From positions 1 to 30,803 of the IMG/VR virus record IMGVR_UViG_3300046003_001999: a stretch of 30,803 nt of DNA; one strand, written 5' to 3'. The translations under genes were made by a program, and so were the position numbers. A model generated the notes under the pieces. That model had not been told where the DNA came from, did no database searches, and worked only from the letters and a program-made list of their open reading frames with translations. This document shows positions 675-30,601 of the stretch, piece by piece. This DNA comes from a virus. The stretch's first letter is position 1. Each line of letters starts with the position of its first letter.

Positions 675-702
675 AACAACATTAAATAATTAGTGTTTTA
701 AT
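675..702 (+). promoter_or_regulatory. Putative late promoter, copy 1
   Basis: AACAA at 675-679 and GTGTTTTAAT at 693-702, separated by 13 bases; the scaffold-like gene starts at 719. The same two-part arrangement with the same spacing occurs at 2876, 22667 and 30574, each time just before a structural transcription unit. It does not match the TAnnTTTG host-type box seen before early genes. Confidence 0.65.
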
Positions 703-718
703 TTAAAATAATATTAAT

Positions 719-1267
719 ATGTCAAACGTACTAACAGAAATCAAAAGGCTTTTAGGGATGGAAATCCAATTAGAGCAAATGACTTTAGACAATGGGACTG
801 TTATCGAAGCGGAAATGTTCGAAGCAGGTCAACCAGTGTTTATTGTTAATGGTGAAGATAGAGTTGCCTTGCCAGTTGGCGAGTATATTCTTGATAACGA
901 AATGATTTTAGTTGTTGCAGTTGAGGGGGAAATTGCTGAAATCAAAGAAGCTGCACCTGCTGAAGAGGAAACTCCTGAAGTAGAAGTAGAAGTTGAACAA
1001 GCTGCTGAACCTACTGCACCTAAAAAAGTAATCGAATCAACTGTTAAAGAGTCGCATTTTTCAAAAGAAGATGTTGATGCTTTAAAGTCTGAAATCGAAG
1101 CATTGAAAACAGAATTAGCGTCTATGAAAGAAGTTAAAGAAGTAGAATTATCTGCACAACCTTTAACGCATAATCCTGATGCAAGACCAAACGTTGAAAA
1201 AATCTTATACTCACAAAATAGAGTATTGACAACTTTCGACAAAGTAATGAGTAAAATTGCTAACTAA
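719..1267 (+). CDS. Putative capsid scaffold protein
   Basis: 182 residues between the prohead protease and the major capsid gene, the usual scaffold position. The first ~75 residues look like a small beta-rich domain (ALPVGEYIL, MILVVAVEGEI). Residues ~75-105 are a low-complexity acidic Glu/Val/Ala/Pro stretch, and ~118-140 form a heptad-like coiled coil (DVDALKSEIEALKTELASMK). The C-terminus is basic and polar. Acidic linker plus coiled coil is typical of scaffolds, which are removed by the protease once the shell forms. I do not recognise a specific family. A capsid decoration protein is the alternative. A weak antisense reading frame over it is a shadow. Confidence 0.6.
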   Translation: MSNVLTEIKRLLGMEIQLEQMTLDNGTVIEAEMFEAGQPVFIVNGEDRVALPVGEYILDNEMILVVAVEGEIAEIKEAAPAEEETPEVEVEVEQAAEPTAPKKVIESTVKESHFSKEDVDALKSEIEALKTELASMKEVKEVELSAQPLTHNPDARPNVEKILYSQNRVLTTFDKVMSKIAN

Positions 1268-1285
1268 ATAAATTAATAAAAAAAA

Positions 1286-2218
1286 ATGGCTACTACAACA
1301 AGTATCACAACAACTTATGCAGGTGAGTTTTCAAAGAAATACATATCTGCTGCATTATTATCAGCACCTACTATCGACAATGGTGGGATTGAAGTAATGC
1401 CAAACGTAAAGTACAAATCAGTTATCCAACGTTTAGCAACGGATGGAATCGTTAAAAACGCTACTTGTGCTTTCGACCCAACTTCTACAATTACTTTAAC
1501 CGAAAGAGTTATTACTCCTGAGGAATTTCAAGTAAATTTAGAATTATGTAAAAAAGACCTTGCAAGTACATGGCAAAGTATTGAAATGGGAATGTCTGCT
1601 TTTTCAGATTTACCAAAATCATTTGCTGATTATTTAATCGGACACGTTTCAGCTAAAGTTGCTGAATCAATGGAGATTTCAATTTGGAGAGGTGCTAACG
1701 CTACTGCAGGTCAATTTGATGGATTTGTGCCTTTAGCTACTGCTGATGCAACTGTAGTTGATGTAGTAGGTACAACTGTTACTGCTTCAAACGTTATTGC
1801 TGAATTAGGAAAAGTAGTAGATGCTATTCCTGCTGCACTTTACGGAAAAGAAGATTTATACATCTACGTTTCTCAAAATGTTGCAAGAGCTTATGTTCGT
1901 GCTTTAGGCGGATTCGGAGCTTCAGGTTTAGGAGCAAACGGAACAAACGCACAAGGAACACAATGGTTCAACAATGGTTCATTATCTTTTGACGGAGTTA
2001 AATTATTCGTTGCAAACGGATTAGCTAATAACTATATGATGGCTGCTCAAAAATCAAACTTATACTTTGGTACAGGTTTACTAAATGATATGAATGAGGT
2101 AAGATTAATTGACCAAGCAGAAGTTACAGGAGCGCAAACTGTAAATGTAATTATGAGATTTACAGCAGGTGTTCAATATGGTATCGGTTCAGAAATCGTA
2201 TTATATACTCCAGCATAA
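1286..2218 (+). CDS. Major capsid protein
   Basis: 310 residues, placed 18 bases after the scaffold-like gene behind an A-rich leader. Composition and layout fit an HK97-fold shell protein: Thr-rich N-terminus, a long helix-rich segment around residues 95-135 (NLELCKKDLASTWQSIEMG, SFADYLIGHVSAKVAESME), then the SIWRG and FDGF turns, and a beta-rich C-terminal half with the YIYVSQNVARAYVRALGG segment. Codon use is regular and the gene is followed at once by a strong terminator, as expected for the most abundant structural transcript. Protease and scaffold-like neighbours support the call. Family-level homology was not tested. Confidence 0.85.
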   Translation: MATTTSITTTYAGEFSKKYISAALLSAPTIDNGGIEVMPNVKYKSVIQRLATDGIVKNATCAFDPTSTITLTERVITPEEFQVNLELCKKDLASTWQSIEMGMSAFSDLPKSFADYLIGHVSAKVAESMEISIWRGANATAGQFDGFVPLATADATVVDVVGTTVTASNVIAELGKVVDAIPAALYGKEDLYIYVSQNVARAYVRALGGFGASGLGANGTNAQGTQWFNNGSLSFDGVKLFVANGLANNYMMAAQKSNLYFGTGLLNDMNEVRLIDQAEVTGAQTVNVIMRFTAGVQYGIGSEIVLYTPA

Positions 2219-2235
2219 TTAATTTAATAACTAAT

Positions 2236-2269
2236 AAAAAAGGTGGTGCAATAAACACCGCCTTTTTTT
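2236..2269 (+). terminator. Intrinsic terminator after the capsid gene
   Basis: A-tract plus GGTGGTG at 2242-2248 pairs with CACCGCC at 2256-2262 (one G-T pair), 7-base loop, then seven T. The stem can extend through the A/T tract to 13 pairs. It lies between the capsid gene and the tail-tube candidate, with no recognisable promoter before the latter. Confidence 0.9.
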
Positions 2270-2287
2270 ATAAAACAAATATATACT

Positions 2288-2815
2288 ATGGCTTGTGATT
2301 TAACATACGGCAGAAAAGAAGTTTGTAAAGATTCAGTAGGTGGCTTAAAAGCGGTTTATTTCGTAAATTATGGCGATGCTACTGGATATACATACGACGT
2401 AACAAATACAGATGTAATTGATGCGGTTGCAGGTACTCCATCTGCATACAAATACGAGTTAAAAGGTGCTTCAACCTTTACTCAAAACGTGAATAGTTCA
2501 CGTGAAAATGGAACTACTTTTTGGGAACAAGTTTTAGAATTGACTTTCAAAAAATTAACTGTTAAAGACCATAAAGAATTAAAACTTATGGCTTATGGAA
2601 GACCGCAAGTTATCGTAGAAGATAACAATGGTAATTTCTTTTATGCAGGTTTAGAACACGGTTGCGATGTAACGGGTGGTACTATTGTAACGGGTGGTGC
2701 AATGGGCGATTTAAGTGGATATACTTTAACTTTAACAGGTCAAGAAAAAGCACCTGCTAACTTTATAGGAGATACTTTAACTGCTGCAGGTTTCACAATT
2801 GTATCAGGTACTTAA
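2288..2815 (+). CDS. Putative major tail tube or other abundant virion protein
   Basis: 175 residues, isolated between two intrinsic terminators. The sequence is beta-rich: GGLKAVYFVNYGDATGY, then YKYELKGASTFTQNV, FWEQVLELTFKKL, a helix DHKELKLMAYG, then VIVEDNNGNFFYAG and DLSGYTLTLTGQE. This pattern is like a Bacteroidota-phage structural protein family placed right after the capsid gene, for which a tail-tube role is plausible because no other tube candidate occurs in the tail operon. I see no promoter between it and the upstream terminator, so it may depend on read-through. A head decoration protein is an alternative. Confidence 0.6.
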   Translation: MACDLTYGRKEVCKDSVGGLKAVYFVNYGDATGYTYDVTNTDVIDAVAGTPSAYKYELKGASTFTQNVNSSRENGTTFWEQVLELTFKKLTVKDHKELKLMAYGRPQVIVEDNNGNFFYAGLEHGCDVTGGTIVTGGAMGDLSGYTLTLTGQEKAPANFIGDTLTAAGFTIVSGT

Positions 2816-2836
2816 TTTTTGAACACTAATATTTTT

Positions 2837-2868
2837 AAAAGCCACTTCTTATCGGAGTGGCTTTTTTT
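2837..2868 (+). terminator. Intrinsic terminator
   Basis: AAAAGCCACT at 2837-2846 pairs with AGTGGCTTTT starting at 2856, and seven T follow the stem. It closes the tail-tube unit; the next late promoter begins eight bases later. Confidence 0.9.
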
Positions 2869-2875
2869 GTTTAAA

Positions 2876-2903
2876 AACAATTTTACAAGAATTGTGTTTT
2901 AAT
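2876..2903 (+). promoter_or_regulatory. Putative late promoter, copy 2
   Basis: AACAA at 2876-2880, 13 bases, GTGTTTTAAT at 2894-2903. It sits directly between a terminator and the portal unit (ATG at 2917), exactly where a new promoter is needed. Confidence 0.7.
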
Positions 2904-2916
2904 ATAAATAACTATT

Positions 2917-3255
2917 ATGATTATTTTAAGAGAGCAAGAAACCGCACAAACATTAAACGCTATAATATATGGTAGCAATGCCGATACTATTGTTTTAAGA
3001 GATGAAGAAACAAATATTGAAACTGAAATTGAATGCGTATTTTCTATTTATAAATACTACGCAATTACTTCGGTTATTTTACCTATAAAAGAAAACAAAT
3101 ATTATACTTTAACTATTAAAGATTCAACAAGGAATGATAATGTAGTTTATAGAGATAAAATTTTTTGTACAAATCAAAATTTACAAAGGTATAGCATAAA
3201 CAAAGATGCTTACGTTGAACATAGAACAACAAACGAATATAAAATATTTGAATAA
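2917..3255 (+). CDS. Hypothetical protein before the portal
   Basis: 112 residues, first gene of the portal unit, ending two bases before the portal ATG. It appears all-beta: alternating hydrophobic strands (NAIIYGSNADTIVLRDEE, EIECVFSIYKYYAITSVIL, YYTLTIKDS) and no cysteine pairs, signal peptide or membrane segment. I do not recognise the family. The fold-like pattern and position suggest a small virion or neck protein. The start is set by the only ATG after the promoter motif. Confidence 0.7.
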   Translation: MIILREQETAQTLNAIIYGSNADTIVLRDEETNIETEIECVFSIYKYYAITSVILPIKENKYYTLTIKDSTRNDNVVYRDKIFCTNQNLQRYSINKDAYVEHRTTNEYKIFE

Positions 3256-3257
3256 TT

Positions 3258-5033
3258 ATGTATGTATTAAATTTAAGTGCTTATACAAGTCCGCAAATTA
3301 ATGAAAGTAAAAAAGGTGATTTTGTGGAATATGGAGCAGATAATAACTACTTTCAATTTTTAATTGATAGATATTTATATAGCACAACAAATAACGCTAT
3401 TATTACTGGTTGTAGTAATATGATTTACGGAAAAGGTATTAGTGCTTTAGACGCTAATAAAAAGCCTGATGAGTACGCTAAAATGATTTCTATTATAAAG
3501 CCAAACGCATTAAAGAAAGTGGCTTTAGAACGTAAACTTTTAGGAATGGCTGCTATGCAAGTTGTTTATGAAAAAGGCGAAGTAAAATTTATTGAACATT
3601 TTCCAATGCATACTTTACGTGCTGAAAAATGCAACGATAAAGGAGAAATAGAAGCTTGGTATTATCACCCTGATTGGGCAAATAAAAAACCAAGCGATGA
3701 ATTAAAAAGAATTCCTGCTTTTGGTTTTGGTAATAAAAAAGAAGTTGAACTTTATATCATAAGACCATATATAAGCGGTTACCATTATTATACACCGATT
3801 GATTATTCGGGTGCTTTACCTTATGCAAAGTTAGAAGAAGAAATTTCTGATTACTTAATTAACGATGTAATGAATGGTTTTAGTGGTACTAAAGTTGTAA
3901 ACTTTAATAATAATATACCGCCTGAAGAAAAAAGAGAAGAAATATCTGCCGATGTAAAAAGAAAATTAACAGGTGCTAAAGGGCAAAAGGTAATTGTATC
4001 GTTTAATAGTAGCAAAGAAAATGCAACAGAAGTTATTGATATTCCATTAAATGATGCACCGCAACATTATGAGTATTTAGCAAAAGAATGTTTTGAAAAA
4101 TTAGTTGTAGGGCATAGAGTTACTTCACCAATGCTTTTAGGAGTTCGTGATACAGGCGGTGGATTTTCAAACAATGCAGATGAAATTAAAACTGCAACTT
4201 TATTATATGATAATTTAGTAATCAAACCTTATCAAATTGAAATTATTGAAGCTTTAGATACTGTTTTAGCGGTTAACAATATCAAATTAAAATTATACTT
4301 TAAAACGATACAACCTTTAGAGTTTACAGATTTAGAAAATGCACAAACAGCGGAGCAAGTAGCGGAAGAAACAGGAGTTACTTTGTCGGCACACACACAC
4401 CCTGATTTAGCAGATGCATTAATTGACAAAGGCGAAGTTTTAAGTGATGAATGGCACTTAATAGATGAAAACGAAGTTGATTATGAACTTGAAGATGAAT
4501 TAGATTCTGAAATTGAAAAGCTAAATAAGAAAAAAGAACAAAGTTTATTTTCTAAAATAGTAAATTTAGTAAGTACAGGAACTGCAAAACCGAGAACAAA
4601 ATCAGAAGATGACAAAGAAATTGACGGAGTTAACTTTATTACTCGATATGTTTATAGTGGCGATACAAAAGGCGAAAGAGATTTTTGTAATAAAATGATA
4701 AGTGCTGAAAAAGTATATAGAAAAGAAGATATTTTAGCAATGGATGACTTATCAGTTAACGCTGGATTCGGTAAAAATGGTGCTGATACTTATTCTATAT
4801 GGTTATACAAAGGCGGGGCAAGATGCAATCATAAATGGCTTCGTAGAACTTATGCAAGTTTTGACACTAAAATAGACCCTACAAATCCAAACGCAAAACC
4901 TTTATCTATTGCAAAAGCTGAAAAGTATGGTTATCGTTTAAGAAATCCAAAAGAGGTTGCAATGAAACCTAAAGATATGCCATACAAAGGTTATACTAAA
5001 GAGTATTGGGAAAAAAAAGGATTTAAAAACTAA
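3258..5033 (+). CDS. Portal protein with extra C-terminal domain
   Basis: 591 residues. The first ~370 look like a phage portal: early GDFVEYG, the NMIYGKGISAL segment, a beta-rich wing (LYIIRPYISGYHYYTPIDY), a helix of conserved acids (KLEEEISDYLINDVMNGFSGT), GQKVIVSFNSS, and SPMLLGVRDTGGGFSNNADEI. The portal forms the dodecameric DNA channel at one capsid vertex. An acidic linker (DYELEDELDSEIEKL, ~410-430) leads to a separate domain at ~458-591 with ERDFCNKMISAEKVYRKEDI and the GGARCNHKWLRR segment. That domain is not part of a basic portal and is recalled from Bacteroidota phages. A short antisense frame inside it is a shadow. Confidence 0.85.
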   Translation: MYVLNLSAYTSPQINESKKGDFVEYGADNNYFQFLIDRYLYSTTNNAIITGCSNMIYGKGISALDANKKPDEYAKMISIIKPNALKKVALERKLLGMAAMQVVYEKGEVKFIEHFPMHTLRAEKCNDKGEIEAWYYHPDWANKKPSDELKRIPAFGFGNKKEVELYIIRPYISGYHYYTPIDYSGALPYAKLEEEISDYLINDVMNGFSGTKVVNFNNNIPPEEKREEISADVKRKLTGAKGQKVIVSFNSSKENATEVIDIPLNDAPQHYEYLAKECFEKLVVGHRVTSPMLLGVRDTGGGFSNNADEIKTATLLYDNLVIKPYQIEIIEALDTVLAVNNIKLKLYFKTIQPLEFTDLENAQTAEQVAEETGVTLSAHTHPDLADALIDKGEVLSDEWHLIDENEVDYELEDELDSEIEKLNKKKEQSLFSKIVNLVSTGTAKPRTKSEDDKEIDGVNFITRYVYSGDTKGERDFCNKMISAEKVYRKEDILAMDDLSVNAGFGKNGADTYSIWLYKGGARCNHKWLRRTYASFDTKIDPTNPNAKPLSIAKAEKYGYRLRNPKEVAMKPKDMPYKGYTKEYWEKKGFKN

Positions 5034-5040
5034 TTAAGCT

Positions 5041-5553
5041 ATGGCATACGCATTATTAATAAGCACAGAGGATGTAAAGAAATTTACTATTACAAATGGT
5101 AATTTAGATGCTGACGATTTTATCGAATACATAAAAATTAGTCAAGATATAACTATACAAAACTATTTAGGTACTAAACTTTACGAAAAGTTACAAGAAT
5201 TGATTTTAAACGACGAAATAAATAACAATGAGTATTTAGCTTATAAAACTTTATTAACGACTTATATCAAACCTATGCTTATTCATTGGGCTATGGTTTA
5301 TTATTTGCCTTTCGCAGCATATACTTTAAGTAATAAAGGTTTGTTTAAGCATACTTCTGAAAACTCTACAAACGTAGAAAAAGCCGAAGTAGATTTTTTA
5401 GTTGAAAAAGAAAGGGATATTGCAGAAAGTTATACTCAAAGATTTATAGATTTTATGTGTTTTAATCAAAATACGTATCCTGAATATAATTCAAATTCAA
5501 ACGATGACGTTAACCCAGATACAAATAATTTTTATGGTGGCTGGCAGATATAA
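5041..5553 (+). CDS. Head-tail connector-like protein (DUF6712 type)
   Basis: 170 residues following the portal after 7 bases. The N-terminal half carries the pattern I associate with the DUF6712 family of Bacteroidota phages: DDFIEYIKISQDITIQNYLGTKLYEKLQELI, then an aromatic helix IKPMLIHWAMVYYLPFAAYTLSNKGLF. The tail is Asn/Asp-rich and probably flexible. Location after the portal and helical content suggest an adaptor ring between portal and tail. Function is inferred from position and family memory. Confidence 0.65.
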   Translation: MAYALLISTEDVKKFTITNGNLDADDFIEYIKISQDITIQNYLGTKLYEKLQELILNDEINNNEYLAYKTLLTTYIKPMLIHWAMVYYLPFAAYTLSNKGLFKHTSENSTNVEKAEVDFLVEKERDIAESYTQRFIDFMCFNQNTYPEYNSNSNDDVNPDTNNFYGGWQI

Positions 5554-5557
5554 TAAA

Positions 5558-5613
5558 CCAAAAGTTGAAAATTTTAAAAAGCTAAATTTATATTTGGCCA
5601 AAGTTGAACAATT
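5558..5613 (+). repeat. Imperfect direct repeat before the fibre-like gene
   Basis: CCAAAAGTTGAAAATTTTAA beginning at 5559 and a close copy, CCAAAGTTGAACAATTAAAA, beginning at 5598, about 39 bases apart. They flank the -7 box and the first copy carries the proposed -33 TTG. It could be a protein-binding site or a chance duplication. Confidence 0.4.
5565..5596 (+). promoter_or_regulatory. Host-type promoter candidate
   Basis: TTG at 5565-5567, 21 bases, TATATTTG at 5589-5596, matching the Bacteroidota pattern TTTG...TAnnTTTG. The fibre-like gene starts at 5628. It may give this gene expression separate from the late promoters. Confidence 0.5.
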
Positions 5614-5627
5614 AAAAAAGATACAAA

Positions 5628-6506: not shown

Positions 6507-6507
6507 T

Positions 6508-6711
6508 ATGATAGTTTTACATCCAAATATAGAACAATACAATGCTTTAAATGGGTATACAAATGGCGTTTGCCGATTAGAGTTTGTAAAAGATGGAGCA
6601 AATAAATGGTATATCGGTCTTGATGCACTTACATACGAACCATTTCAGCCAATCCATAACCAATTAAATGAGTTAGAAAGGATTGAATATACACCTTGTA
6701 TAGATGAGTAG
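6508..6711 (+). CDS. Hypothetical small protein
   Basis: 67 residues starting one base after the fibre-like gene stop. Soluble, with aromatic residues (YNALNGYTNG, NKWYIGLDAL) and a C-terminal acidic end. The family is not recognised by name, but small proteins like this often follow fibre genes as chaperones or attachments. It overlaps the start of the next membrane protein by 8 bases. Confidence 0.65.
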   Translation: MIVLHPNIEQYNALNGYTNGVCRLEFVKDGANKWYIGLDALTYEPFQPIHNQLNELERIEYTPCIDE

Positions 6712-6904
6712 AAAAGAAAAAATAGACTTATTCCTATCAAAATGGGTAAGTAGAAAATTGACTGTTTTCGTGGTGGCTTCTGTTGGTTTATTTAGCGGAG
6801 TTATTACGTCAACGGATTGGGTAATTATTGGAACTTCTTACATAACTATTGAAGGGGTTACTACTATTGTTGAACGCTTAATGAAAACAAAAAATGTCAA
6901 TTAA
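6704..6904 (+). CDS. Holin-like small membrane protein
   Basis: 66 residues with a basic N-terminus (SRKEKIDLFLSKWVSRK), a hydrophobic segment ~18-36 (LTVFVVASVGLFSGVI) and a second weaker one ~40-55 (VIIGTSYITIEGVTTI), ending in basic residues. Size and topology fit a holin, which would permeabilise the inner membrane at lysis. The endolysin gene follows after one more small membrane gene. Holins are too variable to assign by family here, so the role rests on context. Confidence 0.65.
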   Translation: MSRKEKIDLFLSKWVSRKLTVFVVASVGLFSGVITSTDWVIIGTSYITIEGVTTIVERLMKTKNVN

Positions 6905-7425: not shown

Positions 7426-7441
7426 CGGCGATTATCGCCGT
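7425..7441. other. Short perfect hairpin at the endolysin stop
   Basis: ACGGCGA at 7425-7431 and TCGCCGT at 7435-7441, 3-base loop, overlapping the last base of the TAA stop. No T-tract follows, so it is not a canonical terminator on the plus strand. It could protect the 3' end of the lysis mRNA. Confidence 0.6.
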
Positions 7442-7461
7442 AAATGATTGTAATTATAAAC

Positions 7462-7531: not shown

Positions 7532-7537
7532 GTGATG

Positions 7538-8400: not shown

Positions 8401-8403
8401 ATT

Positions 8404-9118: not shown

Positions 9119-9146
9119 GTTAGAAATTTGTAGGAGTGAAATAATA

Positions 9147-9595: not shown

Positions 9596-9606
9596 ATTTA
9601 TTTAAT

Positions 9607-11283: not shown

Positions 11284-11462
11284 AGTTTATTTATTTCTTC
11301 TTTTACTTCTTGCCAATATTCGCATCTTTTAATGTCTGTTGGATAATTTTCTTTTATTAATTCATCAATTAATATTAATGCACATTGTTTGGCTGGTGCA
11401 TTTTCAGAAAAATACATTGATAATTTATCTAATAATTCTTCCGCTTTTTCTTTTGCTTCCAT
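11280..11462 (-). CDS. Hypothetical small protein, first gene of the minus block
   Basis: 60 residues, helical (AKEKAEELLDKLSMYFSEN) with an AKQCALILIDELIKEN segment, then a YWQEVKEEINKL end. I recall this pattern from short Bacteroidota phage proteins encoded near early regulators, but no function is attached to it. It starts 60 bases from a TATTTTTG minus-strand box. Confidence 0.65.
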   Translation of the reverse strand: MEAKEKAEELLDKLSMYFSENAPAKQCALILIDELIKENYPTDIKRCEYWQEVKEEINKL

Positions 11463-11596: not shown

Positions 11597-11626
11597 TTGT
11601 TTATCTAAAAAAAGATATTATATTTG
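11597..11626 (+). promoter_or_regulatory. Host-type early promoter
   Basis: TTG at 11597-11599, 19 bases, TATATTTG at 11619-11626, a close match to the Bacteroidota consensus in both boxes and spacing. It precedes the 11659 gene and likely the run of small early genes after it. The operator-like repeat ends next to the -33 box. Confidence 0.75.
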
Positions 11627-11658: not shown

Positions 11659-11844
11659 ATGAGAACAGCAAAAGATTTAAAAGTAGGAGATTCATTTAAA
11701 AAACAAGGTTTTAAATTTACAATAGCTACTTTAGAGGCAGATAAACAAAAAAACGGAATAGAATGTGTTAATATTACTTGTTATACAAATGATTCTAAAA
11801 TAGCAGACAGCCATTTTAATTTTAAATTAACTACTAAAGTGTAG
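11659..11844 (+). CDS. Small early protein
   Basis: 61 residues, first gene after the strongest early promoter. Lys-rich (16% or so) and beta-like (DLKVGDSFKKQGFKFTIATLE, NGIECVNITCYTNDSKI), with two Cys. No known domain. Being first behind a strong promoter suggests an early host-takeover or regulatory role, with no direct support. A small GC hairpin with a T-run follows it at 11888, so it may be partly separated from the next genes. Confidence 0.7.
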   Translation: MRTAKDLKVGDSFKKQGFKFTIATLEADKQKNGIECVNITCYTNDSKIADSHFNFKLTTKV

Positions 11845-19649: not shown

Positions 19650-20159
19650 ATGTTAAACGAACTATACAAGTATCATAAAGAGCTTATTAAAATGGCTTCT
19701 GTATTCTCTAAACAAGATGCAGAGGACATAGTACAAGAAACTTATATAAAAATGCACTTGTATTCGAGTTATGACAAATGCTTTACAAACGACATTTTAA
19801 ATAAAAGTTATGTGTTTGTTTGTATTCGTTCCGTATTTATTAGGCACTTTTTAAAAAAGCAAAAAATTGAATCTTTTTATTATGAAGGTGATATTGATGA
19901 AGAATATTTAATAGTAGATGAATTTAACGAAGAAGAAGAAATTGATTGGTATAAGTTTAGAACCAAATGCGAAGCAGAAGTAAATAGTTGGGATGCATAC
20001 GATAAAAAATTATTCACGATTTATAGAGATAGCGGTTTAAGTATGCAAGAATTAGCAAACGAAACAAAGATAAGTAAAACGAGTATATTTCACTCACTAA
20101 AAGCACATAAGAAAAAATTAAGGGAGTTATTTCAAGAAGATTATAATAATTTAAAATAA
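19650..20159 (+). CDS. ECF-like RNA polymerase sigma factor
   Basis: 169 residues. Region 2: residues ~12-70 with DAEDIVQETYIKMHLYS and the aromatic/basic stretch SVFIRHFLKK; an acidic linker (EGDIDEEYLIVDEFNEEEEID); region 4: residues ~115-160 with the HTH SMQELANETKISKTSIFHSLKAHKKKL. Regions 2 and 4 without region 3 are the ECF layout. It would direct host RNA polymerase to phage promoters. Four copies of the two-part motif at 675, 2876, 22667 and 30574 before late units are its best candidate targets. Confidence 0.85.
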   Translation: MLNELYKYHKELIKMASVFSKQDAEDIVQETYIKMHLYSSYDKCFTNDILNKSYVFVCIRSVFIRHFLKKQKIESFYYEGDIDEEYLIVDEFNEEEEIDWYKFRTKCEAEVNSWDAYDKKLFTIYRDSGLSMQELANETKISKTSIFHSLKAHKKKLRELFQEDYNNLK

Positions 20160-20458: not shown

Positions 20459-20830
20459 ATGGCAAGAGGTAGAAAAGCCAAAGGACTTGGCGACACAATA
20501 GAACAAATCACAACAGCAACAGGTATAAAAGCAGTTGTAGATAAGATTTCAGAAGTAACAGGGATTGATTGCGGATGCGAAGAACGTAAAGAAGAACTTA
20601 ATAAACTATGGACTTATAAAAAAGTAAGTTGCATAAACGAAACGGATTTACTTTGGTTACAAGACTTTTTACCAAACAAACCAAATCAACTTACAATAAA
20701 AATGCAAGAACAATTAAAAGCAATTTACGAAAGAGTTTTCAATACTCCTTATCGTGGTTCAACTTGCGGAAGTTGTTGGCGTGATATGATAAACGAAATC
20801 GAAAAAGTTTATACTACTCAAATTAACTAA
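20459..20830 (+). CDS. Conserved protein before the terminase
   Basis: 123 residues. GLGDTIEQITTATGIKAVVDKISEVTGIDCGCEERKEELNKL, then LLWLQDFLP and TPYRGSTCGSCWRDMINEIEKVY. Cysteines in DCGC and CGSC give a possible metal-binding set (four Cys). The family is common in Bacteroidota phages next to the small terminase, but its job is not known to me. It may belong to the packaging complex. Confidence 0.65.
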   Translation: MARGRKAKGLGDTIEQITTATGIKAVVDKISEVTGIDCGCEERKEELNKLWTYKKVSCINETDLLWLQDFLPNKPNQLTIKMQEQLKAIYERVFNTPYRGSTCGSCWRDMINEIEKVYTTQIN

Positions 20831-21137: not shown

Positions 21138-21335
21138 ATGGGAAGATATTTAATTTTTACTTATAACACATATTACCCATGCGGTGGAATGGAAGATTTT
21201 GTTTGTAGTATAGATTCTTTAGATGAGTTGAAAGAAATATTAAAAGAATCAAAAGATGATATGTTTCACGTTTATGATATTTTAAAAAATGAATATGCAA
21301 TTAAAGAAATGTATATAAGTGATTACTTTAAATAA
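21138..21335 (+). CDS. Hypothetical small protein
   Basis: 65 residues: YLIFTYNTYYPCGGMEDFVCSIDSLDELKEILKESKDDMFHVYDILKNEYAI. Pattern known in Bacteroidota phages; function unknown. It overlaps the large terminase start by 17 bases. Confidence 0.65.
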   Translation: MGRYLIFTYNTYYPCGGMEDFVCSIDSLDELKEILKESKDDMFHVYDILKNEYAIKEMYISDYFK

Positions 21336-22521
21336 TAAATATAGTCTATTAGGTTCAGATAGTAGATACTTTGTAATTACAGGTGGAAGGGGTTCAGGGA
21401 AATCATATTCTCTTAACTCCTTTTTGCTATTGCTTACATACGAAGTAGGACATGTTATTTTGTTTACACGTTATACTTTGACTTCCGCCCACGTTTCTAT
21501 TATTCCTGAATTTATTGACAAGATTGAAACAGCTGATTTAAGCCACGATTTTTATATTACTAAAGACGAAATCATAAATAAAAGAACAGGCTCTAAAATC
21601 TTATTTAAAGGTATTAAAACAAGTAGCGGAACTCAAACCGCAAACTTAAAATCACTTGCAGGAGTTACGACGTGGGTATTAGATGAAGCAGAAGAACTAA
21701 CAGATGAAGATACATTTGACAAAATAGACTTTTCAATACGTGCAAAGGATATTCAAAACAGAGTTATATTAGTACTTAATCCAGCTACAAAAGAGCATTT
21801 TATTTATAAGCGTTTCTTTGAAAGTAAAGGCGTAAAAGATGGCAGTAATATTGTAAAAGAAGATACTACATATATCCATACTACCTATTTAGATAATTAC
21901 GAAAACCTTTCGAAATCTTTTATACTTCAAATTGAAGATATGAAGGCAAGACGTAAGCAAAAGTATGAGCATCAAATATTGGGCGGTTGGTTAGATAAAG
22001 CCGAAGGTGTTGTGTTTAATAATTGGAGTTACGGAAAATTCAATCCGAATGAATTACCAACTTCTTTTGGTTTAGACTTTGGTTTTAGTATTGACCCAGA
22101 TACTTTAATTGAAGTAGCTATTGATAAATCACATAAAAAGATTTATGTAAAAGAGCATTTATATCAGAATGGTTTACGAATGGAACAACTTGCAACCATT
22201 TGCTTAAACAAAGCTGATAATAAATTGATAATAGCTGATAGTGCAGAGGATAGGTTAATTGTAGATTTAAGGCATAAAGGTTTAAATATTGAACCAATTA
22301 AAAAGGGAACTATCGAAAGCGGTGTAACTATGATGTTAGACTTTGATATTATAGTTGATGAAAGTAGTACCAATATTGCAAAAGAATTAAATAACTACGC
22401 TTATCTAAATAAAGGCAGTAAATTATACATTGATAGTTTTAACCACGCTATTGATGCAATACGATACAATGTAACTTATCATTTAGACAATCCAAACAAA
22501 GGTAACTACTATGTCTACTAA
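21319..22521 (+). CDS. Terminase large subunit
   Basis: 400 residues, GTG start at 21319. PBSX-type packaging ATPase: Walker A GGRGSGKS at 22-29, Walker B WVLDEAEE at 119-126, then VILVLNP (coupling region). The nuclease part has acidic residues D253 (GLDFGFS), D307 (IADSAED) and D379 (HAIDAIRY), the usual three metal-binding acids. It translocates DNA into the head and cuts concatemers. ATG at 22511 of the next small gene overlaps its end. Confidence 0.95.
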   Translation: MITLNNKYSLLGSDSRYFVITGGRGSGKSYSLNSFLLLLTYEVGHVILFTRYTLTSAHVSIIPEFIDKIETADLSHDFYITKDEIINKRTGSKILFKGIKTSSGTQTANLKSLAGVTTWVLDEAEELTDEDTFDKIDFSIRAKDIQNRVILVLNPATKEHFIYKRFFESKGVKDGSNIVKEDTTYIHTTYLDNYENLSKSFILQIEDMKARRKQKYEHQILGGWLDKAEGVVFNNWSYGKFNPNELPTSFGLDFGFSIDPDTLIEVAIDKSHKKIYVKEHLYQNGLRMEQLATICLNKADNKLIIADSAEDRLIVDLRHKGLNIEPIKKGTIESGVTMMLDFDIIVDESSTNIAKELNNYAYLNKGSKLYIDSFNHAIDAIRYNVTYHLDNPNKGNYYVY

Positions 22522-22666
22522 TCAACCTACATACGGACAAATGATTGAAATGGTAGAAATACATATTTTAAAAAAGACAGGCAAAAATGTTACGATAAAT
22601 ATGCCTCGCAATGTAGGGGAAATAAAGAAATTAATTTACGCTTATAAAATAGCAACAAACACTTAA
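22511..22666 (+). CDS. Hypothetical small protein
   Basis: 51 residues, overlapping the terminase by 11 bases and stopping one base before the next late promoter. Helical and basic (YGQMIEMVEIHILKKTGKNVTINMPRNVGEIKKLIYAYKIATN). Not recognised. Confidence 0.6.
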   Translation: MSTNQPTYGQMIEMVEIHILKKTGKNVTINMPRNVGEIKKLIYAYKIATNT

Positions 22667-22694
22667 TACAAAAATACACTAATTGTGTTTTAAT
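22667..22694 (+). promoter_or_regulatory. Putative late promoter, copy 3
   Basis: TACAA at 22667-22671, 13 bases, GTGTTTTAAT at 22685-22694. It begins the tail unit; the ATG at 22701 is seven bases after the box, so the leader would be very short. Confidence 0.65.
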
Positions 22695-22700
22695 AATGAT

Positions 22701-24030: not shown

Positions 24031-24536
24031 ATAATAAAAATACAAAAGAGTATTTAAACGCATTTGCTAAATATGTTATTCAGCAGAGTAGAAGTAATTT
24101 AACTAAACAGAATAAAAATGTAGATAAGAAACTATATGATTCACTTGACAAAGAAATTGAAGTAGGTGCAAATAGTTTCAGAATGGCTTTCTTAATGGAA
24201 GATTACGGAGCGTTTCAAGACAAAGGAGTAAGCGGAACGCAAAAGAAATATAATACTCCATTTAGTTACAAAAGTAAAAAGCCACCATTAAAACCAATTA
24301 CGCAATGGGTAACAAAAAGACGTTTTCAATTTCGTAATAAAGAAACGGGAAAATTTATGTCTTATCAATCAACAGCGTTTTTAGTTCGTAATGGTATTTT
24401 TAAGAATGGTATTAAACCGAGTTTATTTTTTACAAAACCATTTGAAAAAGCATTTGAAAGGTTACCAGATGAATTAGTTGAAGCGTATGGTTTAGATGTT
24501 GAACAATTTTTAGAATTTACAATTAATAAGAAATGA
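24024..24536 (+). CDS. HK97 gp10-like tail or neck protein
   Basis: 170 residues. AKYVIQQSRSNLTKQNKNVDKKLYDSLDKEIE, then EDYGAFQDKGVSGTQKKYNTPFSYKSKKPPLKPITQWVTKR and a helical end. The AFQDKGVSGT pattern is the family hallmark as I remember it; such proteins sit at the head-tail junction. Strong basic middle. Order beside the tail terminator fits. Confidence 0.6.
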   Translation: MLDNKNTKEYLNAFAKYVIQQSRSNLTKQNKNVDKKLYDSLDKEIEVGANSFRMAFLMEDYGAFQDKGVSGTQKKYNTPFSYKSKKPPLKPITQWVTKRRFQFRNKETGKFMSYQSTAFLVRNGIFKNGIKPSLFFTKPFEKAFERLPDELVEAYGLDVEQFLEFTINKK

Positions 24537-25504
24537 AAAAGATATTTATAAGAAGTCCGTATTTTATAGAAGTTGATGAGGTGGGGCAAACTTCTGCAAA
24601 GATAGAAGTATTTTTGTGGAATAAGGGAACGACTGAACCGACAAATCCAAACTATACTTTTACAAAAGCGATACCAAGTCCGACACAAACTAAACTATAT
24701 TGGAACGTTTCTAATTTAGCACAAAGTTTTATTAAACCTATTGCACCTGTTAGCGTATCTGTACCTACTGAAGAAAATGTAAATACTTGGTGCTATATGC
24801 GTGTTATAAGCTATTCAGATGACGTTGAAATACTTGATGAGGTTTATGTTTGTTTAAACGGATATACTAATTATTTAGAGGGCTATAATCAAAGCAATAC
24901 AAATACTTTCTTACCGCTTTTCAATACTTCTATTAAAAACTACGTTAAGGATTTTGAAACTAATTACGTAAGTTTCTTTTTAGAAGAAGAAACCTATTCT
25001 ACTTCTTATGGCGATGTAGTTGTTAGTGATGCGGGAGTTTGGAAATTTCCAATATTAGATGAAACTGAAAATGTAGAAACAAGTTTCTTTTATGCGGAAG
25101 AACTATGCGAGCCTAAATATACTCCAGTTGTTTGTACTTTTATTAATCGTTATGGCGGTTGGCAGTATCTTACTTTCTTTAAAGCTAATTCGCAAGGCAT
25201 AGACGTAAAATCAAAAGACTATAATCTATTACCAAGTTCAATAGATTTCAATCCATTACAAGGTATTAAACAAAGATTTAATTTTCAAGGTACGCAAAAG
25301 ATAAAATGTAATACAGGATGGGTTGATGAAAATTACAGCGAGTTAATTCAGGATTTAATGTTAAGCGAGGTTGTTTTATTAGACAACAAACCCGCAATAG
25401 TTAAGAGTCAAAGTTTTGATATTAAAACGCATTTGAAAGATAAGAATATTAACTACGAAATTGAATTCGAATATAATTACGGACTAATAAACGATGTAAT
25501 ATAA
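24533..25504 (+). CDS. Tail structural protein (distal tail-like)
   Basis: 323 residues, beta-rich, no membrane segments. IFIRSPYFIEVDEVGQTSAKIEVFLWNKGTTEPTNPNYTFTK, then NTWCYMRVISYSDDVEILDEVYVCLNGYTNYLEG and a C-terminal FDIKTHLKDKNINYEIEFEYNYGLINDVI. Members of this Bacteroidota family precede the large tail-tip protein. Dit-like function is inferred from the neighbour to its right. Confidence 0.6.
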   Translation: MKKIFIRSPYFIEVDEVGQTSAKIEVFLWNKGTTEPTNPNYTFTKAIPSPTQTKLYWNVSNLAQSFIKPIAPVSVSVPTEENVNTWCYMRVISYSDDVEILDEVYVCLNGYTNYLEGYNQSNTNTFLPLFNTSIKNYVKDFETNYVSFFLEEETYSTSYGDVVVSDAGVWKFPILDETENVETSFFYAEELCEPKYTPVVCTFINRYGGWQYLTFFKANSQGIDVKSKDYNLLPSSIDFNPLQGIKQRFNFQGTQKIKCNTGWVDENYSELIQDLMLSEVVLLDNKPAIVKSQSFDIKTHLKDKNINYEIEFEYNYGLINDVI

Positions 25505-27747
25505 TGGTAGCACTTTACATTTATGTTGATGGAATAGCGAAACGCATTGAATTATTTGAAGATGAAAAGATTTCAGTTACTTCATCTGTTCAAGATATAG
25601 CCGATGTATCAAAAGCAAAGACTGATTTTACACAAAGTTTCACTATTCCCGCAAGTACTACCAACAATGAAATATTTAAGCATTGGTACGAAAGTAGTTT
25701 AGATGGCGGTTTTGACCATAGAGTTAAATACAACGGATATATTGAAATCGATACACGTACTTTTAGAGATGGTGCATTTGCTTTAAACGATGTAAAGTAC
25801 AAAGATAATATGGTTGATTCCTATTCGATTGTATTTTATGGCAAGGCAAAGAATATAAAAGATATTTTAAAAGAGGATAAACTTGCAAATTTAGATTTTA
25901 GTAGTTTAAACCATACGTTTACAAGTACGCAAGTAATCAATCGAATTACAAGTAACGCTTACGATGTATCTTATCCGTTATTTGCACACGATAGAATTTA
26001 CGATTATAATACGGGGGGTTCAAACGACATTACAATTAATGCGGGTTCTATTCATTGGAATAGTTTGTTTCCTGCAATACCTTTGTCTTTTATAATGCAA
26101 AAGATATCGGACACTTATGATTTAAATTTTACAGGTGCATTTTTAGATTATCCACAATTTACAAAGTTATGGATGTTGTTTAAAAACGCAGAAAGTTTTA
26201 GCCAAAAGTTAACACCTTTAAGAGTAAATTTTACTACTAAAAACGCAGCATTAACAAATGCCGAAGTAAATTTAACAACTGACGAGATAGGTTTTCAAGG
26301 TACAGGATATAGAAACGTAAGACTTCAAATAACAACTGCAAGCACTCAACCTTATGATATTTTAATTTATAAAAATGGTGCGTTACATGGAACGTATGCA
26401 GGTGTAATCGGTAATAGTAATGACATATTTATTAATGAATTTATAACTACTCAAAGCATAAACGACAAATTTACTTTAGCTATTCAAGGTCAAGCGGGTA
26501 TGTCGTTTACAAGTTTGCTAACTTATACACGTGGCTTCGGAAGTAGTGCAGTAAGTTATACTGCAAGTGGTACAAGTCAAACTATTGGAGCAACTATTGA
26601 TATTGGCGGTTATGCTCCTGACTTAAAATTGATTGATTTAATTACGGGACTAATTAAAATGTTTAATTTAGTTATAATTCCGCAAGATGAAACAACCTAC
26701 GAGTTGATTCCTTTAGAGTTATATTATAATGATGGGCGTTACAATGATATAAGTGCAAATGTAATAACTGATGAAATTGATTTAAAAAAGACTTCGATGT
26801 ATAAAAACATCAACTTCAAGTATCAAACTTCGGAAAATATATTAAATACAAAGTTCAACGATTTATTTTTATCAACTCGTAATTTTGCTTATGGTGATTT
26901 AGCATACGAGCAAATTGATAGTTTAGAAAGTGGCACTTTTGCGGTTGAATTACCTTTTGAAAATGCAATGTATGAACGTAAAACTAATAGCAACTTTCAA
27001 ACGATAACTTTTAAAAAGATTGATTTAGCTAATTACTTACCGAAACCTTTATTGATGTATGATAATGGGGTGCAGACAGTAACTCCAAATATTAGAATCG
27101 ATTTACTTACTGGTGGCCATCAGCATATAACCCAATACAGAAGATTTTCAAACGATTACGATAACGGAACTATACTTACTTTAAATTGGGGTGAAGAAAT
27201 ATCTACTTGGTTTTTATCAAACGTTTCAAACGGACTATATAAAAGACACTACGAAAACTATTTAGGTAATATATTCAATATAAAAAGTAGATTAGTAATT
27301 GTAAAGTGCTACTTCAATCCTGTTGAGTTGATTGATATTAAATTAAACGATAGAATTATTATTCGTGATAAAAGGTACACTATAAATAAAATGACTACCG
27401 ATTTAACAAGTGGAGAAACTACTATGGAATTACTTACTGATTATCGAGTTGGTGAAGTACCGATAGGTAATAGATACTCTTTAGAATCTTTTTACCAAGT
27501 TGATAATACAGCACAAACTATTGAAGCTATGCTTTTACTTTCGGATTGGGAAAAGATAATTTTAGAAACGCCAGATGATTCGTGGATAAGTTACACTTTA
27601 GGCACTAAATTCGATAACGAAACAATTAACGTTTCAATAAGTGCAAACGCAACAGGCTCTGAAAGGATAGGATATATCAAAGGCAAATGGGCATTAAATG
27701 ATGGCACAAGTGAAACAATACAAATACCAATTATACAAAATGCTTAA
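25504..27747 (+). CDS. Tail tip protein with BACON-like end
   Basis: 747 residues. The first ~450 contain beta-rich segments and the NIKDILKEDKLANLDFSSL, LSFIMQKISDTYDLNFTGAF and LKLIDLITGLIKMFNLVIIPQDETTYELIPLELYYN patterns known in Bacteroidota tail-associated proteins (Tal-like). Residues ~680-747 (WEKIILETPDDSWISYTLG ... ISANATGSERIGYIKGKW ... ETIQIPIIQNA) have the pattern of a BACON domain, which can bind carbohydrate or cell surface. It would contact the host. Start ATG overlaps the previous stop. Confidence 0.65.
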   Translation: MVALYIYVDGIAKRIELFEDEKISVTSSVQDIADVSKAKTDFTQSFTIPASTTNNEIFKHWYESSLDGGFDHRVKYNGYIEIDTRTFRDGAFALNDVKYKDNMVDSYSIVFYGKAKNIKDILKEDKLANLDFSSLNHTFTSTQVINRITSNAYDVSYPLFAHDRIYDYNTGGSNDITINAGSIHWNSLFPAIPLSFIMQKISDTYDLNFTGAFLDYPQFTKLWMLFKNAESFSQKLTPLRVNFTTKNAALTNAEVNLTTDEIGFQGTGYRNVRLQITTASTQPYDILIYKNGALHGTYAGVIGNSNDIFINEFITTQSINDKFTLAIQGQAGMSFTSLLTYTRGFGSSAVSYTASGTSQTIGATIDIGGYAPDLKLIDLITGLIKMFNLVIIPQDETTYELIPLELYYNDGRYNDISANVITDEIDLKKTSMYKNINFKYQTSENILNTKFNDLFLSTRNFAYGDLAYEQIDSLESGTFAVELPFENAMYERKTNSNFQTITFKKIDLANYLPKPLLMYDNGVQTVTPNIRIDLLTGGHQHITQYRRFSNDYDNGTILTLNWGEEISTWFLSNVSNGLYKRHYENYLGNIFNIKSRLVIVKCYFNPVELIDIKLNDRIIIRDKRYTINKMTTDLTSGETTMELLTDYRVGEVPIGNRYSLESFYQVDNTAQTIEAMLLLSDWEKIILETPDDSWISYTLGTKFDNETINVSISANATGSERIGYIKGKWALNDGTSETIQIPIIQNA

Positions 27748-27883
27748 ACTAATTATTGAAATGCTTGAATTCCAAAAGATAGGAACAAGCGAGAGTATAG
27801 ACATAGCGAAAGGAAAATATAAAATTCCTGATAATTTTAAAGAATTTAAAAACCAAATCAAATGGCAATTACAAAAACGATAG
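27740..27883 (+). CDS. Small protein between tail tip and tape measure
   Basis: 47 residues from the ATG at 27740, overlapping the tail tip gene by 8 bases; an upstream ATG at 27698 lies deeper in that gene and is less likely. LKLIIEMLEFQKIGTSESIDIAKGKYKIPDNFKEFKNQIKWQLQKR. Not recognised. It overlaps the tape measure start by 22 bases. Confidence 0.55.
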   Translation: MLKLIIEMLEFQKIGTSESIDIAKGKYKIPDNFKEFKNQIKWQLQKR

Positions 27884-29889
27884 AAATTGATGTTAACTCG
27901 CTTAAGGCAGTTGGTGGACTTGAAAATTTAGATAAGGCACTTAAACAAGTTGATAAGTCTGCAAAAAGTGTAGATGCTACATTTGAAGAAGTTTACGGAG
28001 ACTTGCAACCGCTAACATCAAGAATGGGCGAAGCTGAAGATAGGTTATACGAACTTGCTTTAGCTGGTCAAAGTGCTACTAAAGAATATCAAGACTTACT
28101 TCAAACCGTTGGTAATTATCGTAAGGTGCAAATGCAAACAGATATGGTTGTTGATGCTGCTGCAACTACATTTGACGCAAAGTTAGGCGGTGCTTTACAG
28201 GGTGTTACTTCAACTTTTGCAGGTGTTCAGGGTGCAATGGCTTTAACAGGTGGAGAGAGTCAAAAACTTGAAGAAGCACTTTTAAAAGTTCAGGGTGCAA
28301 TGGCATTAGCTGAAGGTGTACGAGGTATTCGTGAGGGTGCAGTAGCTTTCAAGGCATTAGGTATATCAGCAAGAATAGCCTTAAACGGAATTAAAACAGG
28401 AATAGCCGCTACGGGTGTCGGTGTTTTATTAATTGCTTTAGGTGCTATTGTAGCATATTGGGATGACATTAAAGAATTAGTAGGCGGTGTAAGTTCGGAG
28501 CAAGAAAAACTAAACGCACAAGCACAAGCTAATTTAGATTTGCAACAAGGTAAATTAGATGCAATCGGTGGGCAAGAAAATATTTTAAAGTTACAAGGAA
28601 AATCCGAAAAGGACATTTTAAAACTAAAGATTGCTCAAACCGATGAAGTAATAAAAGCAACTGAAAACCAAATTGCACAAAATGATATTACTGCAAAAGC
28701 ACAAATAGCAGCTTCGCAACGTAATAGGGATATATTAGCAGGAATTATTAAATTTATTCAAACACCTTTAACTTTATTATTAGAGGGTGTTGATATGGTC
28801 GGCAAGGCATTGGGGCAAAACTTTGGACTTGCTCAAGGCTTTAGTGATTTGGTAGATAAAGGTGCGAGTTTAATATTTGACCCTGAAGCGGAAAAAAAGA
28901 AAGCAGAAGAAACACGAAAAGAAAGTTTAAAAGGTTTAGAGAAATTAAAAAACGATAGAGCAGGTTTACAACTATCTATAAAAAATATTGATGACCAAGC
29001 TGCTAAAGATGCAGCAGCTAAACAAAAGGAAAAGAACGACAAAGCACTTGAGGCAGCAAAAGCACAAAAAGACGCTTTAAAAAATATCGAAGAAAATGCT
29101 TTAAAAGCTATTGAAGATTTAAAAGCTAAAACAGAAGTTGAAAAAGTAGCACTTCAAAAGCAAAGGGATTTAGCGGAATTAGATGCTTTAAAATTAACTG
29201 AAGAAGAAAAAGCAAAAGCACGTTTAGCAATATTAGAAAAATATAAAATTTTAGAAGGAGAAGCAAAAGTAAAAGATGCACAAACAGCTAAAGACGAAGC
29301 TCAAAAACAAAAAGATGAAGCGGAAAGACAAGCTAAAGAAAAGGAGGATATAGCACAAAAAGAAAGAGAATTTAAAGAGCAACAATATAGAGCTACTTAC
29401 GATAACCTACAAAATATTTTATCTTTAGGAGGTAAGAAATTAAATAAAGTTGCAAAGGCTTTAGCTATTGCTGATGTGGTTAGAACTGCTGCACAATCTG
29501 TTTCTTCAACTGTTTCAAGTATTGCAAAAGCAAATGCAGCCGCTGTAGCAGCTTCTCCATTGACAGGTGGTATGCCTTGGGTTGCTATAAATACTGCAAA
29601 AGGAGCTTTAGAAATTGGTTCAACTATTGCAAGTTCTGTGAAATCTATACAAGCTATTAAAGGCGATTCTACTTCTGCTCCAAGTGGTGGTTCTGGTGGC
29701 GGTGGTTCTGCTGGTGGAGGCGGTGGAGCTCCTGCTCCAAGTTTCAACGTAGTAGGTAATTCAGGAGTAAATCAAATTGCTCAAACGTTAGGAAGTCAGC
29801 AACCTGTTCAAGCGTATGTAGTCGCAAACAATGTAACTACTCAACAAAGTTTAGATAGGAATATAGTAAGTAACGCAAGTTTAGGATAA
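27862..29889 (+). CDS. Tape measure protein
   Basis: 675 residues. N-terminal helical part with LENLDKALKQVDKSAKSVDATFEEV, two VQGAMAL repeats at ~117-150, a hydrophobic segment at ~183-200 (GVLLIALGAIVAYW), long coiled coil at ~335-510 rich in Lys/Glu/Ala, a Gly-rich linker at ~607-625 and the conserved end with AYVVANNVTTQQSLDRNI. This sets tail length; a helical protein this long would span roughly 100 nm (rule of thumb). It is last in the tail unit, not upstream of the tail tip genes as is usual. Confidence 0.85.
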   Translation: MAITKTIEIDVNSLKAVGGLENLDKALKQVDKSAKSVDATFEEVYGDLQPLTSRMGEAEDRLYELALAGQSATKEYQDLLQTVGNYRKVQMQTDMVVDAAATTFDAKLGGALQGVTSTFAGVQGAMALTGGESQKLEEALLKVQGAMALAEGVRGIREGAVAFKALGISARIALNGIKTGIAATGVGVLLIALGAIVAYWDDIKELVGGVSSEQEKLNAQAQANLDLQQGKLDAIGGQENILKLQGKSEKDILKLKIAQTDEVIKATENQIAQNDITAKAQIAASQRNRDILAGIIKFIQTPLTLLLEGVDMVGKALGQNFGLAQGFSDLVDKGASLIFDPEAEKKKAEETRKESLKGLEKLKNDRAGLQLSIKNIDDQAAKDAAAKQKEKNDKALEAAKAQKDALKNIEENALKAIEDLKAKTEVEKVALQKQRDLAELDALKLTEEEKAKARLAILEKYKILEGEAKVKDAQTAKDEAQKQKDEAERQAKEKEDIAQKEREFKEQQYRATYDNLQNILSLGGKKLNKVAKALAIADVVRTAAQSVSSTVSSIAKANAAAVAASPLTGGMPWVAINTAKGALEIGSTIASSVKSIQAIKGDSTSAPSGGSGGGGSAGGGGGAPAPSFNVVGNSGVNQIAQTLGSQQPVQAYVVANNVTTQQSLDRNIVSNASLG

Positions 29890-29890
29890 T

Positions 29891-29920
29891 AAAAAAGCCA
29901 CTCCAAAAGGGTGGCTTTAA
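29891..29920. terminator. Terminator between tape measure and minus-strand unit
   Basis: GCCACTC (29897-29903) pairs with GGGTGGC (29909-29915), one G-T pair, with A-tract before and T-tract after. T-run is best on the minus strand (six T), and shorter on the plus strand (TTTAATT), so it ends both convergent transcripts. Confidence 0.9.
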
Positions 29921-29958
29921 TTATTAACTCAAAAAAATTAAACTTTATAGAAACAAAG
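29891..29958 (-). ncRNA. Weak candidate small RNA
   Basis: TATATTTG on the minus strand (plus 29965-29972) is followed after ~45 bases by the terminator at 29891-29920 and no reading frame. No -33 box fits. It might instead be the 3' UTR of the unit to its right. Confidence 0.3.
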
Positions 29959-29964
29959 ACAATG

Positions 29965-29972
29965 CAAATATA
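29965..29972 (-). promoter_or_regulatory. Possible -7 box, minus strand
   Basis: TATATTTG followed by CATTG, same as near 7538, but without a -33 TTG. It would drive only ~70 bases of RNA. Confidence 0.3.
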
Positions 29973-29979
29973 GTAAATT

Positions 29980-30075
29980 TTATTTACTAAAAAAATCTTT
30001 TATAAATTTACCAACTAACATATAAAATACTATAAGTATTGGTATTCCTACTAAAACTAAAACAAGTAATTTCAT
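29980..30075 (-). CDS. 31-residue membrane peptide
   Basis: ATG at 30075 overlaps the lipoprotein stop (TAATG), so it is translated from the same mRNA. One long hydrophobic run (residues ~3-21, LLVLVLVGIPILIVFYMLV) then basic end KFIKDFFSK. A single-pass membrane peptide. Possible partner of the lipoprotein; no family recognised. Confidence 0.55.
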   Translation of the reverse strand: MKLLVLVLVGIPILIVFYMLVGKFIKDFFSK

Positions 30076-30488
30076 TATTTTAAATTTATAATTGAACCTT
30101 GATTACCTAAAGTAGTAGTTGGTAATTTACCATTCCAACGATTAATTTTATTATATTCTAAAATCGTAGGAGTAATAGATTTATTTAGCATTTCATTTGC
30201 TTTAGCTTGACTTTCTGCATTCATAATTCTTGCTTGTGCATCTGCTTTAGCTTGTATTATTTTAGCTTCTGCGGTTGCATTTGCTTTTTCAATTTTTGTT
30301 TTTGCATCAAGTTTAGCACTTTCATAATTTGCTTTAGCTTGTTCAATGTCGGCTTTCTTTTCACTTTCTGCTTTTAGTAAAATAGATTTACCATCACTTT
30401 CTGCATCTAATTGGTTTTGTTGTCTTTGATAATCATTACAAGAAAATAACGAAATAGACAATCCCAAAATTAACAATACTTTTTTCAT
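30075..30488 (-). CDS. Lipoprotein with coiled coil and prohibitin-like tail
   Basis: 137 residues. Signal MKKVLLILGLSISLFSC with lipobox LFSC (lipid on C17). Residues ~25-100 are a long Ala/Lys/Glu coiled coil (AKANYESAKLDAKTKIEKA...). The end NKSITPTILEYNKINRWNGKLPTTTLGN resembles the C-terminal tail of SPFH/prohibitin-like proteins of Bacteroidota (LTPxLIEY...W.GKLP). The SPFH domain itself is missing. It has its own promoter, leader and terminator and is antisense to the late genes, a moron pattern. Superinfection exclusion or altering of the host surface is a possibility; no direct evidence. Confidence 0.7.
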   Translation of the reverse strand: MKKVLLILGLSISLFSCNDYQRQQNQLDAESDGKSILLKAESEKKADIEQAKANYESAKLDAKTKIEKANATAEAKIIQAKADAQARIMNAESQAKANEMLNKSITPTILEYNKINRWNGKLPTTTLGNQGSIINLK

Positions 30489-30500
30489 AATAAATTGTTT

Positions 30501-30559
30501 AAAAAAATCCCCAACACTCGCTACAAATGTCAGGGATTAAATATCTTATTGTTGTAGCG
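30501..30559 (-). promoter_or_regulatory. Structured leader of the lipoprotein gene, possible pseudoknot
   Basis: On the minus strand in order: CGCTACAA (plus 30552-30559), AATCCC (30533-30538), TTGTAGCG (30519-30526), GGGATT (30506-30511), then a T-run. Stems one and three, two and four pair perfectly (8 and 6 bases) and interleave with loops of 13, 6 and 7 bases, so a pseudoknot is sterically reasonable. The last stem with T-run resembles an attenuator. It lies between the promoter box at 30565 and the ATG at 30488. Confidence 0.55.
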
Positions 30560-30564
30560 AAGCA

Positions 30565-30572
30565 CAAATATA
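30565..30572 (-). promoter_or_regulatory. Host-type -7 box of the lipoprotein unit
   Basis: TATATTTG on the minus strand, 77 bases before the ATG at 30488, followed by the structured leader. No -33 TTG at the right place. It is back to back with the late promoter at 30574. Confidence 0.6.
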
Positions 30573-30573
30573 A

Positions 30574-30601
30574 AACAAATTTTTGATTATAGTGTTTTAA
30601 T
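30574..30601 (+). promoter_or_regulatory. Putative late promoter, copy 4
   Basis: AACAA at 30574-30578, 13 bases, GTGTTTTAAT at 30592-30601; the protease ATG is at 30613. With the following bases (TTTAAAA) it is almost identical to copy 1. It starts the head unit that runs across the window join. Confidence 0.7.

Follow-up and report, generated by a model that had tools for sequence, protein, structure and literature searches.

Phage-encoded sigma factors and late transcription

The described systems closest to the one considered here are those of the enterobacterial podophages phiEco32 and Salmonella phage 7-11, in which the phage sigma factors gp36 and gp47, respectively, serve late promoters (PMC8948821); the phiEco32 system also includes gp79. 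The window, by which is meant the whole 30,803-nt stretch of viral DNA analysed here, resembles them, as far as its sequence alone can tell, in combining a phage-encoded sigma factor with dedicated promoters ahead of the late units, in having early promoters of the host-sigma type and, as predicted for the window, in the use of the phage sigma factor together with host RNA polymerase. In both cases, too, relatives have diverged sigma factors and, at similar places in the genome, promoters of another consensus (PMC8948821). The enterobacterial phages differ from the window in their larger genomes (77 kb in the relative SU10) and in their promoter consensus, which is tAATGTAtA or GTAAtg-16-aCTA. 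A tblastn search with the window sigma factor gave no match in the phages collection at an E-value of 0.01, which argues only against close homology to gp36 or gp47.

The ECF sigma factors of Bacteroidota (TIGR02985, TIGR02937) share the two-domain, sigma2-sigma4 architecture of the window protein, but the latter is phage-borne, scores below the curated cut-offs and goes with the -10 element GTGTTTTAAT. Flavobacterium promoters of the SM6 motif have a CGT-containing -10 box (PMC9723704), as do those of the most distant phages in our comparison, Nonlabens phage P12024S and contig G036. P12024S and P12024L (Inhavirus) have genomes syntenic with the window, with 38% identity in the portal protein and 35-37% in the capsid, but the sigma gene of P12024S, although also syntenic, encodes a protein only 24% identical to the window sigma factor, and its -10 box is different. 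P12024S gp33 and P12024L gp35 are annotated merely as containing Sigma-70 region 2, and no description of late promoters in these two phages was found in the literature searched. Nor was a late switch in small Bacteroidota phages found described in the open-licence full-text literature on Bacteroidota and Flavobacterium phage sigma factors and late promoters; late-gene switching in such phages appears so far to be undescribed.

We propose, with a probability that we put at about 0.88, that the early operon of the window supplies an ECF-type sigma factor, which associates with host RNA polymerase and brings it to a dedicated set of four late promoters. Host sigma-A would start the early operon at 11659 from the TATATTTG promoter just upstream of it; the operon would furnish the phage sigma factor; this, bound to host RNA polymerase, would read sites composed of WACAA, a 13-nt gap and GTGTTTTAAT; and the capsid, portal/lysis, tail and protease units would then be expressed late, from transcripts starting a few nucleotides upstream of the ATG. 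The sigma-linked change of promoter across related phages, set out below, strongly suggests a late-gene switch built by the phage itself.

Four candidate late promoters and an early operon

The window is a circular genome with overlapping ends, positions 1-93 repeating 30711-30803 with a few mismatches, so that the protease gene behind the fourth site continues at 1-496. The features discussed are collected in Table 1.

Table 1. Coordinates of putative promoters and of selected genes in the window
Feature	Position	Strand	Remarks
Putative late promoter P1, AACAA-N13-GTGTTTTAAT	675..702	+	16 nt 5' of ATG 719; scaffold-like/major capsid unit (719-2815)
Putative late promoter P2	2876..2903	+	13 nt 5' of ATG 2917; portal / M15 peptidase (portal/lysis) unit; terminator hairpin immediately upstream
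Putative early promoter of Bacteroidota host sigma-A type, TTG-N-TATATTTG	11597..11626	+	Head of early operon, just 5' of ATG 11659
Phage sigma factor, 169 aa, ECF type, sigma2 + sigma4	19650..20159	+	Profile matches, AlphaFold2 model
Gene for 123-aa protein beside sigma gene	20459..20830	+	Sequence also divides the two promoter groups; cysteine-containing
Large terminase	21319..22521	+	Identity about 94% to several type B genomes; about 36%, where matched at all, to type A genomes
Putative late promoter P3, TACAA-N13-GTGTTTTAAT	22667..22694	+	6 nt 5' of ATG 22701; tail unit
Putative late promoter P4	30574..30601	+	11 nt 5' of ATG (about 30613); S78-like head protease gene

The pattern WACAA-N13-GTGTTTTAAT matches exactly four times in the window, always on the plus strand, and was absent from all of 100 dinucleotide-preserving shuffles; the four copies that the sequence-only reading had reported at 675, 2876, 22667 and 30574, and their common 13-base gap, are thus borne out. 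With a PWM trained only on relatives these sites scored 33.4-37.3 bits, no other position on the two strands exceeding 6.5 bits, and the scan of the whole window turned up no unplaced copy of the full motif. The bare 10-mer GTGTTTTAAT has a fifth copy, at 5457, which is intragenic and without a -35 element. The earlier reading had placed the sites 7-18 bases before the first ATG of structural units: the placing stands, but the range does not, the measured distances being 16, 13, 6 and 11 nt. It was right that the second and third copies follow a terminator or a stop codon, the hairpin upstream of P2 being followed by a T-run, and the first base of P3 coming directly after the TAA stop of gene 22511-22666. 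The tail unit behind P3 extends to the tape measure gene, which ends at 29889.

A sequence scan found the TAnnTTTG box at none of the four late sites, as had been claimed. The same box had been attributed to the early genes. It is indeed present at the start of the early operon, within which the sigma gene lies, in a promoter assigned by means of the published Bacteroidota sigma-A consensus (PMC6847099); the class as a whole, however, is just mildly enriched, with 19 exact matches to TTG-N17-23-TAnnTTTG in the window against 8.9 +/- 3.1 expected. For this reason the generic scan was dropped as evidence for early promoters, and only the promoter at 11597-11626 is relied on.

Since the late element stands just 5' of start codons, and Bacteroidota are without Shine-Dalgarno signals (PMC6847099), it might be supposed to act in the RNA, as a signal for translation initiation. 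We find this scarcely credible, because the element precedes only the four units, where it follows a terminator or the end of an operon, and is missing in front of operon-internal genes.

The phage sigma factor

The product of the sigma gene consists of a sigma2 and a sigma4 domain and lacks sigma1.1 and sigma3; this two-domain architecture is that of an ECF (group IV) sigma factor. It scores just below the Pfam cut-off for Sigma70_r2 (PF04542; 22.0 bits against 24) and below that for TIGR02937 (sigma70-ECF; 34.8 bits against 42.9), and is accordingly filed here as ECF-type and not as a curated member of the class. It also matches the ECF profile TIGR02985, again below cut-off, as well as phrog_1740 (RNA polymerase sigma factor), and TIGR02937 is matched by all 16 sigma homologues examined.

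The AlphaFold2 model of the protein (mean pLDDT 77.7) has helical N- and C-terminal parts joined by a low-confidence linker at residues 72-89. The best PDB matches of this model in Foldseek were the ECF sigma factors RpoE, SigH, SigL and AlgU, with E-values of about 1e-3 and whole-chain TM-scores of 0.3-0.4, which is weak support; these low values probably arise because the two sigma domains are placed differently relative to one another, and this fits a flexible linker. Matches to solved structures were likewise weak for a profile built from the closer sigma factors (set A2). The predicted fold is consistent with the initial description of the protein as an ECF-like sigma factor. No anti-sigma gene was recognised beside the sigma gene, and no protein directed against the host sigma factor came to light in a cursory look; sigma replacement, which the sequence-only reading had suggested, is in the strict sense of the term no more than a possibility.

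Sites and sigma genes in related phages

Searches for the capsid and the sigma factor among viral contigs gathered 124 loci. Every related contig of 29.6 kb or more, 25 in all, encodes a sigma homologue, and the 13 records from which it is absent are all shorter fragments. The genomes fall into two main promoter types, A and B, each genome having about four sites of a single type, on the late-gene strand and at the same four places. In assembled genomes, all 107 type A or B sites lie outside long ORFs, 3-24 nt 5' of a start codon, and all 107 are on the gene strand. Among the matches listed from a scan of the whole viral contig collection, multiple matches to the type A pattern occur solely in the phage family of the window, and those in unrelated contigs are mostly single chance matches; a lone match is therefore not diagnostic, and its use as a family marker was rejected.

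A host search with the capsid alignment matched only three metagenome bins, of which two bear the label Bacteroidetes/Bacteroidia and the third Woesearchaeota; with so few bins and mixed labels, the host can be assigned to a phylum at best. A record labelled a Woesearchaeota chromosome (L210; CP070803.1, 130686-151540) carries a capsid gene 57% identical to that of the window; the label is likely to be a binning or assembly error.

Promoter type changes with sigma clade

In type A genomes (the window, G004, G037, G038, G039 and G041), the sigma factor is 88-100% identical to that of the window and the -10 element is GTGTTTTAAT. In type B genomes (G002, G006-G009, G012-G015, G027, G040 and G042-G046), the sigma factor belongs to clades B or B2 and is 58-67% identical to that of the window, and the -10 element, at the same places, is TGTTTTTAA(ATAAA), mostly extended to TGTTTTTAAATAAA. 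The -35 element AACAA and the spacing are constant across both groups, so that by sequence comparison AACAA lies at a fixed distance from a clade-specific -10. Sigma clade and promoter type agree in 22 of the 22 genomes where both can be typed; in G045 and G046 the fourth site is weaker, at 16-17 bits. A lone type B site is also present in some contigs whose sigma factor has about 46% identity to clade E, which counts against the proposed reading.

Two contigs have unusual contents. G001 (L005), a fragment without a sigma gene, is the only mixed contig, with type A sites at 312, 7505 and 8708 and a type B site at 11358, and likewise counts against that reading. G015 (IMGVR_UViG_3300042311_000159, 37 kb) has sigma genes at 24211-24696 and at 13-468, the latter, contig-end copy being very different; the contig may be a chimera, or the phage may have two sigma factors.

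Such agreement might mean no more than shared ancestry within one clonal background, and would then be uninformative about recognition. There is a single A/B transition on the sigma tree, because A and B each form one sigma clade, and one change of label is likewise enough for the protease tree. On the other hand, the label has to change three times on the tree of the capsid and four times on that of tail gene 25504, which breaks up the grouping (these are quick trees, in which some long branches were flagged). The tail genes are shuffled between the groups, and the window has a capsid 98% identical to that of the type B genome G002 and a terminase and primase closest to those of B genomes, while its four dispersed sites still match its sigma factor. 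The identity of the terminase to that of genomes of the other promoter type (Table 1) points to recombination between the sigma gene and P3. At P1, a comparison of the window with G002 gives 94% identity in the -35/spacer stretch, 89% in the leader and 97% in the coding sequence, against 64% in the -10 block. Descent alone is thus an unlikely account of the agreement and, even if true, would not turn the sites into non-promoters. As judged from these genomes, promoter type tracks the sigma factor despite recombination of capsid, tail and terminase genes between the groups, and the link from sigma factor to promoters, which the sequence-only reading had offered as inference, is now well backed by comparison. 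The large terminase subunit is itself swapped among relatives as a module.

The same data bear on who reads the sites. They might be promoters for an ECF or other alternative sigma factor of the host, the phage protein doing something else: Flavobacteria have several ECF sigma factors, the SM6 motif places a CGT box at -10 (PMC9723704), and the boxes of P12024S and G036 contain CGTTA. We nevertheless hold this to be very unlikely, given that promoter type goes with the phage sigma clade even where genomes have recombined, that the sigma gene is found in all the long contigs, and that GTGTTTTAAT is unlike both the host sigma-A box and the described CGT box.

Alternatively, another phage regulator, such as the protein encoded by gene 20459, might bind at the motif, and the units might be transcribed with host sigma-A. 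That gene, like the promoter-flanking genes, does separate A from B genomes, but its close linkage to the sigma gene can explain this, and its product has no recognisable DNA-binding domain. Two blocks at a fixed spacing and a short distance from the ATG are moreover promoter-like, and the sites are without the TAnnTTTG box, all of which makes a separate regulator highly improbable. We therefore retain the phage sigma factor as the predicted reader of the four sites; the product of gene 20459 is possibly its partner in transcription, or is merely linked to it.

Possible basis of -10 specificity

Between A and B sigma factors sigma2 is 61% identical and sigma4 78%. In the model, the residues fixed specifically in clade A, Y41 and I/V49, lie in the stretch that separates a helix with its last residue at 38 from the final sigma2 helix, which begins at 52. 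In ECF sigma factors, the pocket that receives a flipped -10 base is formed by loop L3 of sigma2, which has been tied to -10 specificity (PMC6372665). We infer that the sigma2 loop before the last helix may set the -10 difference, and that the better conserved sigma4 may set the common -35. Overall divergence is no guide to specificity, because the sigma2 of clade B2 is as far from that of B (58%) as is that of A, and yet B2 genomes have type B promoters; it was accordingly rejected as a predictor of -10 type.

More tentatively, it may be that in a large group of Bacteroidota phages with heavy recombination the sigma factor evolves jointly with its scattered late promoters, to which it stays matched, the -35 remaining fixed and the -10 changing with sigma2. 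Phages with near-identical capsid genes could then belong to different transcriptional compatibility groups, and only some exchanges of genes would be viable. The coupled change of sigma factor and promoter across recombined genomes amounts to a natural specificity experiment, which names the residues and the bases to compare, and the A and B pairs are candidate orthogonal promoter/sigma pairs for Bacteroidota genetics. The isolated phage P12024S makes the idea testable.

The wider family and phage P12024S

Further -10 boxes are seen in more distant members of the family: (T/A)ATTTTTAAA in clade D, TTGTTTTTA in G032 and CGTTATCA in G036. In clade E the sites are too variable for one pattern, and a search with an exact consensus fails, giving 0-2 matches per genome.

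P12024S (JQ823122) has seven forward sites of the form AACA(A/C)-N14/15-CGTTA, spanning 146-26769 and lying 31-33 nt 5' of annotated genes, against one on the other strand. The CGTTA boxes end only a few nucleotides upstream of the ATG, so that the P12024S transcripts could be leaderless or nearly so.
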